From Natronomonas sp. CBA1123 (lineage in GTDB: Archaea; Halobacteriota; Halobacteria; Halobacteriales; Haloarculaceae), in NCBI RefSeq assembly GCF_009741925.1, contig NZ_WPCC01000016.1, positions 1 through 64,000 on the forward strand: DNA of 64,000 nucleotides. Reading direction: 5' to 3'. The translations under genes were made by a program, and so were the position numbers. Shown here piece by piece: positions 4,296 to 13,768 of this stretch. The notes under the pieces were generated by a model. The model saw only the letters and a list, made by a program, of their open reading frames with translations. It searched no databases and was not told where the DNA came from. Within the stretch, counting starts at the first letter, position 1. Each line of letters begins with the position of its first letter.

Positions 4296-6236
4296 TCAGA
4301 ACGATTCGATGCGACGGTCCGCCTCGACGTTCGCTGCGTCCTCGGGGAGCAACGCGACGACGAGGTACTCGCTGTACTCCGCGACGTACTCCACGAGCGT
4401 CGCGATTCGGTTCGCGTCGATGGCTTCCAGCGAGTCGAGAACCATGAACGGGACGGTCTCGTACACCTCGTGGGCCAGATAGCCGGCGAGCGCGAAAATG
4501 AGCCCGGTCACTTCGCGTTCGCTCTCCGAGAGATGGTCGACGGTGTCCTCGTAGGTCGTCCCCGACTCCGTCTGCCGGATGATGTGTAAATCGAAGACGC
4601 TCTTGGTGACCTTCCGACGACCCTCCCGTACCTGCTTTTCCGTCCGCTCCAGCCAGATGCGGGCGAGGTTGTCGTACTCGAGGAGGTCCAACACCGTCTC
4701 CATGTGCTCGTTGAACGCCTCGATTGCCTGCCCTTCGATGCGTTCGATTTTCGTTCGCAGTTCCTGGATTTCCTCCGAAACCTCTTCCTTTCGCGTTTCG
4801 AGGTCGGTTTCCTCCTCGAGTCGCTCTTCTATCGTCTGGATGTTGTCCTCGACGCGTTCGAGGTCGTTTTCGAGGGTTCCGAGGTCGTATTCGAGCTGGT
4901 TGGCCTCCTTGTGGAGGTCGAGGACCTCCTCGTAGGAGTCGTCTTCGAGTTCTTCGATTTCCGCTTCGACGCTCTCGATTTCCTCGCGGAGTTCTTCTCG
5001 ACGCTCGGAGAGCCGTTCGATGCGGGTCTCCGTCTCCTCGATTTCGTCTTCGAGTTCCCGTTCGCGGCGGTCGAGACGTTCACGCCGGCGCTGTTGGTCC
5101 TTCCGGTCCCGGCGCTTCCCCTTCAACTCCTCGAGTTCGTCGTCGATGTCGTTGATTTCGCTGACCGTATCTTGGCTCAGGCTTCGCAGTTTTTCGATGG
5201 TCGACTCGATTTGAGCGGCGTCGACTTCGCTCCCGCAGGTCCAACAGGTCACGCTGTCGTCGGGGAGGAGTTCGTCGGTCACGCCCGCACCACCGTCACC
5301 GTCGCGGAGGGCATCCGACACCTCGTCGCCGGACTCTTCGAGCATCTCCTGATTGAACCCGATGACGCTCTGGAGTTCGTTCAACTCGGATTCCAAGCCC
5401 TGTTTTCGGGTCCGCAGCGTGTCGATTCGACTCTCGATTTCCTCTAAATCCCCTGCCGGTGTCTCCGGGAGTTCCTCGTACTCCGCCCCGATATCCTGTT
5501 TTTCGGTCCGGAGGGACTGAAGGCTGTCCTCTTCAGTTTCCAGTTCGTACCGAACGTCTTCGAGGTCCGAACGGGTCTCACGCAGTTCCTCCAGTTTCGC
5601 CTCGAGTTCGGCCTGCTCCTCGCGGCTCTGTTCGACGTCGGCGTCCTTGGATTCGATTTGCTCTTCGAGCGCTTCGAGTTCCGACGTCGTCTCCTCGATT
5701 TGGTTTCGGAGGCGGGTTCGCTTTTCCTCAAGGGACGGCAGTCGGTCCTTCAGGGAGTCCAACTCGTCGATTTCCTCCGAGAGCTCCTGTCGCTTCTCGA
5801 CGAGTCTGTCGATTTCCGCCTGAATCTCGTCGGTGTCGACGGGACGCATGATGAGGTCACGGAGGTCCGCGTCGGTCACGACGGCCCGACGGGCTTCGTT
5901 GGACTCGAGCAGGAACGCAAAGAGGTCGGCAACCGTGGGGTCATCGAGGTACGGGTCGCCGCTGGTCTGTACCGTTCCGTTCCGACGCTGAAGCATTCGC
6001 GTGTACGTTTCTCCAGCGATATCCAACTCCACGTGTGCCTCCTCGGCGTCGCCCTTCATCGAGACGTTGTCGCTCCCGAGCGCTGCCATGATGGCCTGCA
6101 GCAACGATGTTCTATTCGTCGCATTGCGGCCTGCCAGTACCGTCACCCCCGGCTCGAAGTCGACATCGGCCTCGTCGATGCCTCCGATGTTACGGACCGA
6201 AATTCGGCTACCGGGTTCGGTCTGCTTCGTACTCAT
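4296..6236 (-). CDS. sph3: archaea-specific SMC-related protein (Sph3-like)
   Basis: The 646-aa protein has SMC/Rad50 architecture: an N-terminal nucleotide-binding half (residues about 10-110), a first long coiled coil, a Rad50-like zinc-hook CWTC (about residue 333), a second coiled coil, and a C-terminal half with the signature-like HLSESEREVTGL and a Walker B-like MVLDSLEAID. The Walker A is altered: GRNATNRTS, with Arg where the Lys should be, and the Walker B has Asp-Ser instead of Asp-Glu. It is encoded 71 nt downstream of rdfA, the arrangement known in Haloferax volcanii, where this pair influences cell shape. The ATG at 6236 is chosen because the match to the family starts at MSTKQ. 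Confidence 0.85.
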   Translation of the reverse strand: MSTKQTEPGSRISVRNIGGIDEADVDFEPGVTVLAGRNATNRTSLLQAIMAALGSDNVSMKGDAEEAHVELDIAGETYTRMLQRRNGTVQTSGDPYLDDPTVADLFAFLLESNEARRAVVTDADLRDLIMRPVDTDEIQAEIDRLVEKRQELSEEIDELDSLKDRLPSLEEKRTRLRNQIEETTSELEALEEQIESKDADVEQSREEQAELEAKLEELRETRSDLEDVRYELETEEDSLQSLRTEKQDIGAEYEELPETPAGDLEEIESRIDTLRTRKQGLESELNELQSVIGFNQEMLEESGDEVSDALRDGDGGAGVTDELLPDDSVTCWTCGSEVDAAQIESTIEKLRSLSQDTVSEINDIDDELEELKGKRRDRKDQQRRRERLDRRERELEDEIEETETRIERLSERREELREEIESVEAEIEELEDDSYEEVLDLHKEANQLEYDLGTLENDLERVEDNIQTIEERLEEETDLETRKEEVSEEIQELRTKIERIEGQAIEAFNEHMETVLDLLEYDNLARIWLERTEKQVREGRRKVTKSVFDLHIIRQTESGTTYEDTVDHLSESEREVTGLIFALAGYLAHEVYETVPFMVLDSLEAIDANRIATLVEYVAEYSEYLVVALLPEDAANVEADRRIESF

Positions 6237-6307
6237 ATGTCCGTTCAATCGATTGAGTCACATATCAAGGTTTGGGACTCGTCAGGAATCGAACGGGACG
6301 CCGCCTG

Positions 6308-6934
6308 TCACTCAGAATCGCAGTTACAGCCACCGCGGTCGAACAGTTCGAGAACGTCGAACTGGGTGTTGCAGTCCTCACAGATGACCTGAATCTCCGC
6401 CAGCGTCCGGAACTCACCGAGCGTGAGGTGACCGCCGTCTCGGAGCTGTTCGAGTTTCCCCTCGGTGACCGAAACCATCCGCCCGCGCAGTTTCTGGACG
6501 TTCGTCGCTTCCCGCTCCAGAGGGTCAGTCTCGGCGGGCGTGTACTCGGCGCCCCGGTGCTCCTTGAGATACGTCCGAATCGCCTGATAGGTGACGAAAT
6601 CCCGTTGCAGGGCGTCGACGTCGACGCCGTCGCGTTCGAGCCGCCGTTGAATCCGCGTCGATTCTGCACTGCTCACGTCGTCGTCAGTCAGCAGCCGGTA
6701 GGTGTTCTCCAGTTCCCCATCGAGGTGTTGGACGTTCGCCGCTTCGAGGGCCTCTCGGAGGAGTTCCTGATTGAACTGTGCGGCCAACTCCCGGAGGCTG
6801 CTCCGGTCCTCGTCGGCGGTCCAGCGCTGTTCGAGTTCCGCGCCGAGACCCTGGAGGTCGTACTCCTCGATGAGCCGGGCGACCTTGCTCCGTCGGCCAC
6901 GCCCGGACCCCGGTGTGTCGTCGGACTGGTCCAT
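6308..6934 (-). CDS. rdfA: rod-determining factor RdfA-like protein
   Basis: The 208-aa protein begins MDQSDDTPGSG and reads RGRRSKVARLIEEYDL, typical of the haloarchaeal RdfA family, followed by a helical body and a C-terminal four-cysteine zinc site (CEDC ... GGCNC). In Haloferax volcanii RdfA is needed for the rod form and is encoded next to the SMC-like sph3, as here. A small ordered LeuArg-rich region (LRELAAQFNQELLREAL) suggests protein-protein contacts. The ATG at 6934 is preferred; the upstream open frame is not family-like. A regulator or scaffold role in the disk-to-rod switch is inferred from the family. Confidence 0.85.
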   Translation of the reverse strand: MDQSDDTPGSGRGRRSKVARLIEEYDLQGLGAELEQRWTADEDRSSLRELAAQFNQELLREALEAANVQHLDGELENTYRLLTDDDVSSAESTRIQRRLERDGVDVDALQRDFVTYQAIRTYLKEHRGAEYTPAETDPLEREATNVQKLRGRMVSVTEGKLEQLRDGGHLTLGEFRTLAEIQVICEDCNTQFDVLELFDRGGCNCDSE

Positions 6935-7048
6935 ATCCACCTCAACGGGAGTGGGCTGGTTGTACCTTTCGTCTCGTGAACAGAACACCCGTATCGGACC
7001 CGATACCAGGCTGAATGCCGGTACTCCTCTGCCGTGCACAACGCATAT

Positions 7049-9783: not shown

Positions 9784-11799
9784 ATGGGGGGCGACTCCGA
9801 ATCCGACGGAAGCGACGAGGATAGCGAGGTGTCTCGACGGGTCGTCGTCGGAACCGGCCGTGGACTCGACAAGCGCGACCGCTTCGAGACGCGAAAGCAC
9901 GTCAGCACGGACTGGGACTTACAGAAACTCTCGTTGCTCGGTCCGATTCTGTGGAGCGTCGTTTTGGTGGTGTTCATCGCCGGAACGGTCTGGTACGTCG
10001 TCTTCTCCGCCGGCGGCTACCTCGATTTGCTTCTCGGATTGCTCGGTGACCTCGCGTCGTTCCGGCTTCCGGAAATAAACGCCTTCGCTCGGTCTCGAAG
10101 CCTCGAAGTCGTCTCCGTACTCGCGGTGACCGCGTGGATCGCACCCCGCGTCGTCGCCGTGGTGCGTGAGGAGGTCGCGAGCATCCGCGACAAGGCGCTG
10201 GCCGGACTGTATCAGGTCCGCCACCTCGGCGTCCTGTTGGACATCGACACGTGGTCGAACCACAACTACTGGCACCCGTTCACGTCGCATCTCTCCGACC
10301 GCGACCCGCTCGTGATGTTGGCGAACGCCGACCTCGACGCGACGGTCAGCGGCGTCTTCACCGACGTGCCGTACTACCGGAACGTGTTCGTCGACAGCGT
10401 GTACGTCACGTTCGATTCGCTGCCGGACCGAGCGACGCGACTGGAGTTGGGCTGGTTCGACTGGCGACTCGCCTACCCACGGCGATACGTCCTCGGAGCG
10501 GCCGTCCTGTTGCTCGTCATCACGCGGTTTCCGACGACAATCGGTGTCGTTCCGGCCCTTCCGTCGGTGCCGTGGTCGACGCTGGAGTTGGGCGCGCTCT
10601 ACGGTCTCTCCGGCTACATCGTCGTGACGGCTTTCACCGACTACGTCGGCTTCCGGCGGCGGTTCTTCGGCAACTCCGCCGGTTTCTCGGAGTACGGTCT
10701 CCTCCAGAGCACCGAAAAGTCGACGCTGTTCGAAGACGAGGCGAAGACGGTCGACCGACTCGGCAACTCACTGGCCGGCTACGGACTGTTCTACGTCAGC
10801 GAGTTCCTCTGGAGCGTCGTCGGCCGCGACCGTTCCTATCGCGTCGAGAACGCCGTCGAAGCCGACGAGGACAACCGAGAAATCGCCGCCGAGGCGGGAA
10901 CGGAACTGCTGGAACGTGCGATACCGGCGCCGACCACCGCCGAGACGGGAGACGGCGACAACGACAAACCAATCGAGATGCACCTGGAGGGCGTCGACTA
11001 CCTCCGACAGGATATCCACCGCCGACGACTGCTCGAACGCGTCCCGGCCGTCGGCAAGCGCTACGGTCGCTCGGTCGGCGAGGGCAACGACCGGGGGTTG
11101 GACCACGCCGGCGCGAAACGCGGCGTCAGACTGCCGGTGAAGCGGTTCGTCAGCGTTCCGCACCCGTTCTTCGCCGACTACAACCTCGAAACCGACGACG
11201 AATTCCCGTTTTACTTCGACCGGACCTGGGACGAAGACGAGACCCACTACCTGCTGTTGGGCGGTGCCGAACATCAGGAAGCACTCGTGAAGTTCATCCA
11301 GTACCTCCGCTCGCCCGACGGGGCCGGCTTCGAGAACGTCGACCTCATCGAGAACGCCTTCACCGACGAGGACGACCTCCAGTTCGTCTCGGAGTACTTC
11401 GTCTCCTCCGTGTTGCGCGGCGACGACGACTTCCGCGGGTCCCGCGACGAAGACGGGAAGGTGTTTCTCGTGTTGCGACACCGCATCGACGACGACCGAA
11501 CCGTCCACGTTGTCTACGGCATGGGCGCCCTCGAGAGCAAGATGGCGTTTCTGTTCTGGCTGGACTCCTTCCCGGAGGCCCCCTACGACGACGACGTACT
11601 GTACCGAGTTCGATACCGGGACGACGTCGACGACGTGGGTCGACTGTACGCCGACCCTTCGTGGCTGAACGACCCTGAAAAATCGGTCACCTTCGACTGG
11701 CAGACCGACACCGAGACGGCCGTCGTCGAGGGCGGAGAATCGACGCTCGACTGCCGACAGGTAGACGTGGAGGTGCGATTCGAAGATGGCGATGAATGA
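9784..11799 (+). CDS. unrecognised 671-aa membrane protein
   Basis: The ATG at 9784 starts MGGDSESDGS. A charged cytoplasmic N-terminus is followed by a hydrophobic helix pair (GPILWSVVLVVFIAGTVW; LEVVSVLAVTAWIAPRVV), a soluble loop with aromatic and His residues (WSNHNYWHPFTSHL), another pair of membrane segments (YVLGAAVLLLVITRF; LYGLSGYIVVTAF), and a soluble C-terminal region of about 350 aa rich in HYLLLGGAEHQE and VVYGMGALESKMAF motifs. I do not recognise the family. The C-terminal portion resembles an alpha/beta domain with Gly-rich loops and could bind a nucleotide-like ligand, but that is a guess. The stop overlaps the start of the following gene by 14 nt, so the two proteins are probably made together. 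Confidence 0.7.
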   Translation: MGGDSESDGSDEDSEVSRRVVVGTGRGLDKRDRFETRKHVSTDWDLQKLSLLGPILWSVVLVVFIAGTVWYVVFSAGGYLDLLLGLLGDLASFRLPEINAFARSRSLEVVSVLAVTAWIAPRVVAVVREEVASIRDKALAGLYQVRHLGVLLDIDTWSNHNYWHPFTSHLSDRDPLVMLANADLDATVSGVFTDVPYYRNVFVDSVYVTFDSLPDRATRLELGWFDWRLAYPRRYVLGAAVLLLVITRFPTTIGVVPALPSVPWSTLELGALYGLSGYIVVTAFTDYVGFRRRFFGNSAGFSEYGLLQSTEKSTLFEDEAKTVDRLGNSLAGYGLFYVSEFLWSVVGRDRSYRVENAVEADEDNREIAAEAGTELLERAIPAPTTAETGDGDNDKPIEMHLEGVDYLRQDIHRRRLLERVPAVGKRYGRSVGEGNDRGLDHAGAKRGVRLPVKRFVSVPHPFFADYNLETDDEFPFYFDRTWDEDETHYLLLGGAEHQEALVKFIQYLRSPDGAGFENVDLIENAFTDEDDLQFVSEYFVSSVLRGDDDFRGSRDEDGKVFLVLRHRIDDDRTVHVVYGMGALESKMAFLFWLDSFPEAPYDDDVLYRVRYRDDVDDVGRLYADPSWLNDPEKSVTFDWQTDTETAVVEGGESTLDCRQVDVEVRFEDGDE

Positions 11800-12589
11800 T
11801 TACATCCCGTCGGCGTACGACGACCGCGTGTTCTTCTACGCGAACAGAATCGTCCACGACGCGGCTACTGGCGAGTGGGACGTACACGTCGACCCGGAGA
11901 ACTGTCTCGTCGCTCTGAACGACGCGGCGAACGAGCGGCTCGGGACGGCGTTTCCGACCGTCGAAACCCTCGTCGACGAACCGGTCGAGCGTCGCGTTGC
12001 GGGCGACCGCGAAATATACGAAGGGCGACTGCTGTTGGGGGCGGGCGTGATTCCGATGGTCGGCGACGACCTCGTGCTCATCTTCAGGGACGCCGACGCG
12101 CCGGCGGACCCGCTCCGGTGGACCGCGGCCGACGGCCGCGTCGACGCCACGCCCACGCGGACGGCCTTCGAGGAGTTCCACGAGGAGTTGCTGGTGTTCC
12201 GGGAAGGGACGCCGGTGTACGTCGACGTACCGGGGGCACCGTCGTTGCGCGACACGTACACCGAGGCGCTCCGCGAGAACGGCTACGAGGTTCCGGACCC
12301 ACTCCCGACCGTCGCGGGGACGGTGCCAGAGCGCTACCGCGAGTCGTTCGAAACCGTCCGGACCCACTTCGGCGAGGAACAGACGAGTGGCTCGTTTTTC
12401 GTCGATTGGTACCCCGAGACGGGCACCCTCGGTGCGGCCACAGTCGTCGCAATCGAGGGGTCGGACCTCACCTTCGCCGACGGGGAGTTCGACCGCTGTG
12501 TCGAGCGGTTCCCTCTGGAGGTGGCCGCCGACCGCCCAGCGGGGATGTACGTGGGAACCGTCGCGAGGTTTCTCGACTACGCTATCTGA
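11786..12589 (+). CDS. degenerate Nudix-like protein, coupled partner
   Basis: The 267-aa soluble protein has a central segment that reads like a Nudix fold: strand LLLGAGVIPMVGDDLVLIFRD, then W-x4-G-R-V-D ... TAFEEFHEELLVF. This matches W-x-x-P-G-G-x-V-E ... A-x-x-R-E-F-x-E-E-L, but the leading PGG is AADG, the box is two residues short, and the Arg before the Glu pair is replaced. The EE pair is kept. It may bind, rather than cleave, a nucleotide derivative. Its start lies within the end of the 671-aa membrane protein gene (translational coupling), implying a complex. A second ATG, 6 nt in (MNDYIPS), is also possible. Confidence 0.65.
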   Translation: MAMNDYIPSAYDDRVFFYANRIVHDAATGEWDVHVDPENCLVALNDAANERLGTAFPTVETLVDEPVERRVAGDREIYEGRLLLGAGVIPMVGDDLVLIFRDADAPADPLRWTAADGRVDATPTRTAFEEFHEELLVFREGTPVYVDVPGAPSLRDTYTEALRENGYEVPDPLPTVAGTVPERYRESFETVRTHFGEEQTSGSFFVDWYPETGTLGAATVVAIEGSDLTFADGEFDRCVERFPLEVAADRPAGMYVGTVARFLDYAI

Positions 12590-12628: not shown

Positions 12629-12637
12629 TTTATATTA
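12629..12637 (+). promoter_or_regulatory. TATA box of the AI-2E permease gene
   Basis: TTTATATTA lies about 26 nt before the ATG at 12659, the spacing expected for a leaderless haloarchaeal transcript. Confidence 0.6.
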
Positions 12638-12658: not shown

Positions 12659-13768
12659 ATGGACGAGAAGCGCGCAGTGGTCGCCCTCTTCGGTGTTGCC
12701 GTGGCCGCAGTCATCGCCTACGTCGCCTACCGGTTCATCGCCGCACTGACCGTGGCCGTCTTCCTGTATTACTCGACGCGTGGCTTCTACAAGGCACTCA
12801 CCCGGCTTCGACTCCCGAAGCGAATTCGTGCCGTCACGGCCATCTCGGTGATTGCGTTGCCGCTCATACTGCTCATCAGCTACACGGTCGTGTTACTCGT
12901 GACCGAGCTCCAGACGTTCATCAATCAGTCCGCACTCATCGAGTCGACGGCGAGCAACGTCTCGTGGCTGCAGGGGTTGGAGGACCCGCCGGAACTCACA
13001 CCGAGTGGGTTGTACGAAGCGTACCAGAACGGCCAATTCGACACTATCATTGACTTTCTCTCCGACAACGCCTCCTTCCTGACCAGCGCCATCTCCGGGT
13101 TCTTCCTCAACCTCCTCATCGTCATCATCGTCACCTACTACCTGCTCATCGACGGCTCGAAGATTCACTCGTGGCTGTTGCGCTTCGACGACGACGCCAT
13201 CGTCCGTGCGTTCCTCGAAGACGCTGACGCGGAGTTGGAGGCCGTCCTCTTCGGGAACTTGCTCAACGTCATCGCCATCTCGATTATCGCCATCGCCTCC
13301 TATCTCGCGTACAACGCCGTCGTTCCGGCCGCCGTCGAGGTTCCCTACCCCGCCCTCGCCGGCGCTCTGACCGGTATCGCGAGTCTCATCCCCGTCGTCG
13401 GGATGAAAATCGTTTATATCCCGCTGGCTGCGGCGACGGCGCTGCCGACTGTACTCGGCGGCGGTGACATCTCGTTGCTCGTGTACACCGCCGGGTTCCT
13501 CGTCGTCGCGCTCGTCGTCGTCGACACCATCCCCGACCTGGTGCTCCGGCCGTTTTTGAGCGGCGAGAAGACCCACGTCGGCCTGCTGATGCTCGCGTAC
13601 ATCCTCGGGCCGGTCGTCTTCGGGTTCTACGGCCTGTTCTTCGCCCCGATACTGCTCGTGTTGGGGCTGACGTTCTCCGACATCGCGCTCCCGCGACTCC
13701 TCGGCGCAGAACCACAGGACGACGGCCTCCCGGACGAACAGACCATCCTCGACGAGTTCCGGACCTGA
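12659..13768 (+). CDS. AI-2E family transporter (PerM-like permease)
   Basis: The 369-aa integral membrane protein has two N-terminal helices (residues about 8-40), helix 3 (VTAISVIALPLILLI), a soluble extracytoplasmic insert of about 100 aa (IESTASNVSWLQGLEDPPEL ... DNASFL), then five C-terminal helices with the family motifs GIASLIPVVGMKIVYIP and FYGLFFAPILLVLG. The family includes quorum-signal (AI-2) exporters and Na+/H+ antiporters, so substrate is uncertain. The gene has its own TATA box and is monocistronic, with 137 nt to the next start. Confidence 0.88.
   Translation: MDEKRAVVALFGVAVAAVIAYVAYRFIAALTVAVFLYYSTRGFYKALTRLRLPKRIRAVTAISVIALPLILLISYTVVLLVTELQTFINQSALIESTASNVSWLQGLEDPPELTPSGLYEAYQNGQFDTIIDFLSDNASFLTSAISGFFLNLLIVIIVTYYLLIDGSKIHSWLLRFDDDAIVRAFLEDADAELEAVLFGNLLNVIAISIIAIASYLAYNAVVPAAVEVPYPALAGALTGIASLIPVVGMKIVYIPLAAATALPTVLGGGDISLLVYTAGFLVVALVVVDTIPDLVLRPFLSGEKTHVGLLMLAYILGPVVFGFYGLFFAPILLVLGLTFSDIALPRLLGAEPQDDGLPDEQTILDEFRT

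Follow-up and report, generated by a model that had tools for sequence, protein, structure and literature searches.

A conserved haloarchaeal gene pair encoding a putative new membrane-protein family and a predicted Nudix-fold protein

The window analysed here, a 64,000-nucleotide stretch of Natronomonas sp. CBA1123 (contig NZ_WPCC01000016.1), contains two overlapping genes, hereafter P1 and P2, whose products are a polytopic membrane protein and a predicted Nudix-fold protein (Table 1). Both reading frames and the extent of their overlap, as given in an earlier note on this DNA, were borne out by the open reading frame (ORF) listing and the sequence. The same note had remarked that neither protein has a recognised family name, and indeed the P1 and P2 proteins of the window had no match in Pfam, NCBIfam or PADLOC profiles. 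The next gene after P2, which encodes an AI-2E family transporter, begins at position 12659 and has a TATA-like box ahead of it, which suggests that P1 and P2 constitute a two-gene transcription unit of their own. Both genes are under purifying selection in the three Natronomonas species compared, with NG86 dN/dS values of about 0.08-0.11 for P1 and 0.23-0.32 for P2.

Table 1. Features of the P1/P2 locus, in window coordinates.
Feature	Coordinates	Strand	Description	Basis
P1 gene	9784..11799	+	671-aa polytopic membrane protein	ORF and translation
TM1-TM2 hairpin codons	9946..10164	+	P1 residues 55-73 and 109-127	Hydropathy
Second TM hairpin codons	10504..10635	+	P1 residues 241-259 and 266-284	Hydropathy, alignment gap
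P1 soluble C-terminal alpha/beta domain (predicted)	11101..11583	+	P1 residues 440-600	Invariant alignment columns
P2 gene	11786..12589	+	267-aa Nudix-fold protein (predicted)	Model, Foldseek, Pfam scores of relatives
P1/P2 frame overlap	11786..11799	+	14 nt; end of P1 inside start of P2	
Short Nudix box GRVDATPTRTAFEEFHEELL	12134..12193	+	P2 residues 117-136	Alignment and model
TATA-like box TTTATATTA	12629..12637	+	~22-30 nt upstream of the AI-2E family transporter gene	Read from sequence

Upstream of the pair, the window encodes an HTH_10 (DmsR-like) regulator, an HTH_20 protein, a HalOD1 protein and a universal stress protein, and downstream of it lie the AI-2E, Na/Ca exchanger and Cdc48 genes, a neighbourhood common to two other Natronomonas carriers. 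The stress and regulator cluster to which the earlier note drew attention is therefore real beside the window pair, but it is a local Natronomonas feature; it was not seen beside pairs outside this genus, and so offers no basis to infer a stress function. At two loci in different families, in carrier genomes G034 and G273, a divergent SDR dehydrogenase gene lies beside the pair (L013:7189-7950 and L014:7099-7923, both on the minus strand), the two being 62% identical, and no SDR gene was seen at the other P1/P2 loci.

Searches with P1 gave no match in Pfam, NCBIfam, PADLOC, PHROGs or PDB sequences; judged by its sequence, P1 is a new membrane-protein family, absent from the profile libraries searched. 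Homologues were found in five other haloarchaeal genomes and in one distant genome (G649). Transmembrane (TM) segments, called by hydropathy only and leaving out marginal peaks (one of them inside the soluble domain), number four in the window protein, six in the relative from G400 and two in the distant homologue. The TM1-TM2 hairpin is conserved by hydropathy in all P1 relatives, including the distant two-TM homologue, and the second hairpin is missing from the latter, where the alignment shows a gap, and doubled in G400. Stretches rich in Lys and Arg flank the TM segments on their predicted inner sides. As the TM segments come in hairpins, the N-terminus, the middle loop and the C-terminal domain should all face the cytosol, which is the simplest topology.

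Conserved motifs mark each of these predicted cytosolic parts, with VvxxGxxLDKR...DxDL at the N-terminus and NYWxPFxxHLSDRDPL...VDSVYV in the middle loop. The large soluble C-terminus, already recognised in the earlier note, is real and best described by its LPVK, LGGxEH and GxSALxxK motifs. The motifs of this domain read RLPVK, LLLGGAEH, NVD, EYFVS and GMGALESKMAFLFW (GxSALxxKxxFLxW), and of these the distant homologue retains LPVK / LGGPEH / VGFNALMTK. This LGGPEHN...GxxALxxK domain may resemble a widespread bacterial GGPxxN...GxxGT domain, a likeness on which none of our readings draws. The predicted pattern of strands and helices suggests a Rossmann-like alpha/beta fold, which is not established because the AlphaFold model of P1, made with six sequences, is of low confidence (pLDDT 39). 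P1 gave no Pfam or PDB sequence match that would link its membrane part to TRP channels or to SLOG/MHR.

For P2, the AlphaFold model is confident (pLDDT 84, pTM 0.82; six sequences), and when it was compared with the PDB using Foldseek, all 50 of the 50 best matches were Nudix-clan proteins (best E 3.2e-4). Three P2 relatives from other genera scored 28.5, 26.4 and 28.4 bits against PF00293 (NUDIX), for which the gathering cut-off is 21.1 bits, whereas the window P2 itself was below detection by this profile. The P2 family profile in turn matches other haloarchaeal Nudix proteins weakly or partially. On the strength of its model, P2 is a real Nudix-fold protein, and within a known clan it forms a new subgroup. 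The Nudix-like core that the earlier note read in this protein is thereby upheld by model, Foldseek and the Pfam scores of relatives, and the non-Nudix fold that it had named beforehand as evidence against itself did not occur in any of the three.

The Nudix box is defined as GX5EX7REUXEEXGU, and several characterised Nudix hydrolases have shortened or altered boxes (PMC5389931). The motif positions in P2 are W112, then G117-R-V-D, then E129-E130-F-H-E133-E134, so that its box is two residues short, just as the earlier note had read it; the first Glu of GX5E and the PGG are absent, and Glu replaces the Arg in Natronomonas, so the box of P2 is not a canonical one. The Nudix helix comprises residues 123-134 of the AlphaFold model, and E130, E133 and E134 are invariant in the alignment of all six haloarchaeal members. 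In Nudix hydrolases, three glutamates of this helix bind the metal. The claim that a Glu pair is kept was thus correct as to retention and too modest as to number, since all three metal-ligand glutamates are present. Loss of PGG and of the key Arg likewise holds for the window P2, although the three relatives from other genera keep PAGR in the alignment and two of them retain the Arg as well (RELYEEL, against KEFYEEL in the third), and the losses of the Arg and of the proline of PxG are therefore specific to the Natronomonas clade.

Throughout the P2 family the box is two residues short. That this might be a lesion unique to P2 was rejected, as the short box also occurs in haloarchaeal IF-2B-NUDIX fusions (loci L028, L030, L025 and L031), which have the spacing of the P2 box (GHAEGDPDALAREEIAEE) and, like the Natronomonas proteins, Glu where the Arg would stand, and differ from P2 in having the NUDIX domain fused to an IF-2B domain. 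To our knowledge, no pairing with a membrane protein is known for these fusions. Because all metal-ligand glutamates are present, the word degenerate, which the earlier note applied to P2, overstates the case for the window lineage, and because the short spacing and the Arg-to-Glu change recur in the fusions, it is only partly right. Compared with the Nudix clan (PF00293) at large, the haloarchaeal P2 proteins share the fold, the position of the Nudix helix and the metal-ligand Glu triad, and differ, beyond the shortened box and its missing first Glu, in an insertion of ~40 residues after the box helix and following strands, and in extra N-terminal beta strands.

Among 392 genomes of the order, P1 was found in four and full-length P2 in exactly the same four. 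Two further Natronomonas species also carry the pair, and the haloarchaeal carriers (n = 6) represent four genera and three families. P2 lies directly downstream of P1 in all six, and with G649 included the two genes are adjacent at 7/7 loci in five genera; a pair not conserved as neighbours, the other outcome that the earlier note had set against its own reading, was thus not what we observed. No further carriers were found in the window's family (146 genomes searched with P2), in the family of G273 (125 genomes searched with P1) or in that of G400 (167 genomes searched with P1), and a scan of genome contigs with a narrow single-protein query returned one locus, in Natronomonas gomsonensis. 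The collections of phages, viral contigs and plasmids searched yielded no P1/P2 copies, and the pairing was not found in the open-licence papers searched.

A search of the phylum with the C-terminal domain of P1 led to G649, a genome that belongs to the Halobacteriota but not to this order. Its 4.6-kb contig (L049) encodes a full-length P1 relative (hhalign E 2e-12) and, in the gene directly upstream, a P2 relative (hhalign E 1.5e-5) that aligns across the Nudix core and on as far as the TFADGEF motif, the gene order being reversed relative to haloarchaea. The box is further decayed here (AESVEIL): the EE pair has become EI and the third metal-ligand Glu is lost, which leaves the triad with E130 and E133 alone, so that degenerate is a better description of this homologue than of its haloarchaeal counterparts. 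NUDT21, which has the same E-to-I change, is among the Nudix proteins with substituted boxes (PMC5389931). Given the 4.6-kb contig and the incomplete genome, the binning and completeness of the G649 pair are uncertain, and P1 was found in none of 57 other genomes of the same class. The pair is located between a tRNA-Gly gene (260-337) and, on its far side, a perfect 26-nt repeat of the tRNA-Gly 3' end (4493-4518), and the ~4.2-kb stretch between the two holds no sizeable ORF except the Nudix/membrane pair. This bracketed stretch looks like a minimal tRNA-integrated element without an integrase of its own; alternatively, the repeat may be a decayed second tRNA-Gly gene. The phylum search also gave a weak domain match in G670 (E 0.025), which we rejected as a family member: the short frame that contains it shows none of the other family features and overlaps an unrelated ORF on the opposite strand.

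Other loci bear on mobility as well. In G400 a tRNA-Arg gene (8395-8467 of L012) precedes the pair by about 130 nt, and 19 kb of sequence contained no direct repeat of the 3' end of this tRNA; the G273 pair has a GC content of 54% vs 63% for its locus. In Natronomonas genomes lacking the pair, the AI-2E gene is flanked by no other gene of the window, so that synteny through this gene reveals no empty site. Based on the sparse distribution, the tRNA-flanked copy in G649, the tRNA-Arg gene in G400 and the low-GC pair in G273, we infer that P1/P2 is a laterally mobile two-gene module, whose genes seem to travel together from one genome to another.

The closest working analogy for the pair would be TRPM2: in one lineage its Nudix domain works as an ADPRase, and in another it is a pocket for ADP-ribose that is catalytically dead (PMC7555694). 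In both cases a membrane protein is associated with a Nudix domain (NUDT9-H in TRPM2) whose binding pocket may be active or dead (PMC7555694), but P1 and P2 are two separate proteins, with 2-6 TM segments and a different cytosolic domain, and we claim no homology with TRPM2. The interpretation in the earlier note is partly borne out: nucleotide-derivative sensing at the membrane, which it raised as possible, is a plausible role for P1/P2. Our preferred reading, held tentatively and at a little less than even confidence, is that P2 binds, and in haloarchaea may hydrolyse, an NDP-type ligand and thereby controls P1. One ancestral TM hairpin would anchor P1 in the membrane, with one or two more added in haloarchaeal members, and P1 would act as a ligand-controlled channel, transporter or membrane effector. 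P2 would be cytosolic, would bind a nucleoside-diphosphate-type molecule and would serve as a dedicated partner of P1, either by binding the ligand and relaying its state or by setting the ligand level through hydrolysis. Physical contact between P1 and P2, a nucleotide ligand and a transport or effector activity of P1 are what we infer under this reading. A more specific version, in which a separate Nudix protein that shifts between enzyme and sensor by lineage gates a two-, four- or six-TM P1 through its cytosolic alpha/beta domain, appears quite improbable at present; if true, it would be a two-protein prokaryotic counterpart of TRPM2 logic.

Speaking against control of P1 by P2, the pair has no conserved neighbour that would synthesise a nucleotide, and the Glu triad of the haloarchaeal proteins is also compatible with a plain enzyme. 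The two genes could then form a metabolic pair: P1 would convert or transport an activated lipid, sugar or cofactor as a membrane enzyme or transporter, and P2, an active Nudix pyrophosphohydrolase, would cleave the substrate or a by-product. The invariance of E130, E133 and E134 in haloarchaeal members argues for such a role, as does the divergent SDR gene beside the pair in two families; nonetheless, with one metal-ligand Glu gone from the distant homologue, the SDR gene limited to those two loci and P1 lacking a match to any enzyme family, we consider it somewhat unlikely. A third possibility casts P2 as a scaffold of degenerate, non-catalytic Nudix type, whose role would be to stabilise or assemble P1 with no small ligand bound. 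The shortened, Arg-less box of Natronomonas and the survival of only two triad residues in G649 are consistent with this, but the full metal-binding triad persists in four haloarchaeal genera, which a pure scaffold would not need, and makes the explanation very improbable.

The patchy distribution, the tRNA-flanked copy and the low-GC copy would also suit an anti-virus or abortive-infection module, in which P1 would be a nucleotide-triggered, membrane-disrupting effector and P2 would sense or destroy the signal as an off-switch. The two-TM plus soluble-domain layout of the distant homologue fits this as well: 2TM effectors of nucleotide-signal defence (for example the Panoptes / mCpol type) are likewise few-TM proteins that bear a cytosolic domain and are encoded in small operons (PMC12657230). 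The likeness to these effectors goes no further than analogy; neither P1 nor P2 has a PADLOC match and no nucleotide synthase is adjacent. No enzyme that could supply a signal is encoded beside P1/P2, we recognised no defence gene on reading the neighbours identified in the window and at the other loci, and viral, phage and plasmid copies are lacking from the collections searched; we therefore regard a defence role as unlikely.

If P2 does control P1, archaea would have a compact nucleotide-to-membrane signalling unit with a ligand that biochemistry could identify. P1 lies outside the profile libraries searched, yet even in deeply diverged archaea it remains tightly linked to a Nudix partner, and the gradient from three to two metal-ligand glutamates would allow the transition from enzyme to sensor to be studied directly.

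Elsewhere in the window, a gene on the minus strand (4296-6248) encodes an archaea-specific SMC-related protein (NCBIfam NF045487, 712 bits). It is preceded by a gene on the same strand (6308-6979) for an acidic protein with no NCBIfam match, which, as a guess, could be an RdfA-type partner of the SMC-related protein.
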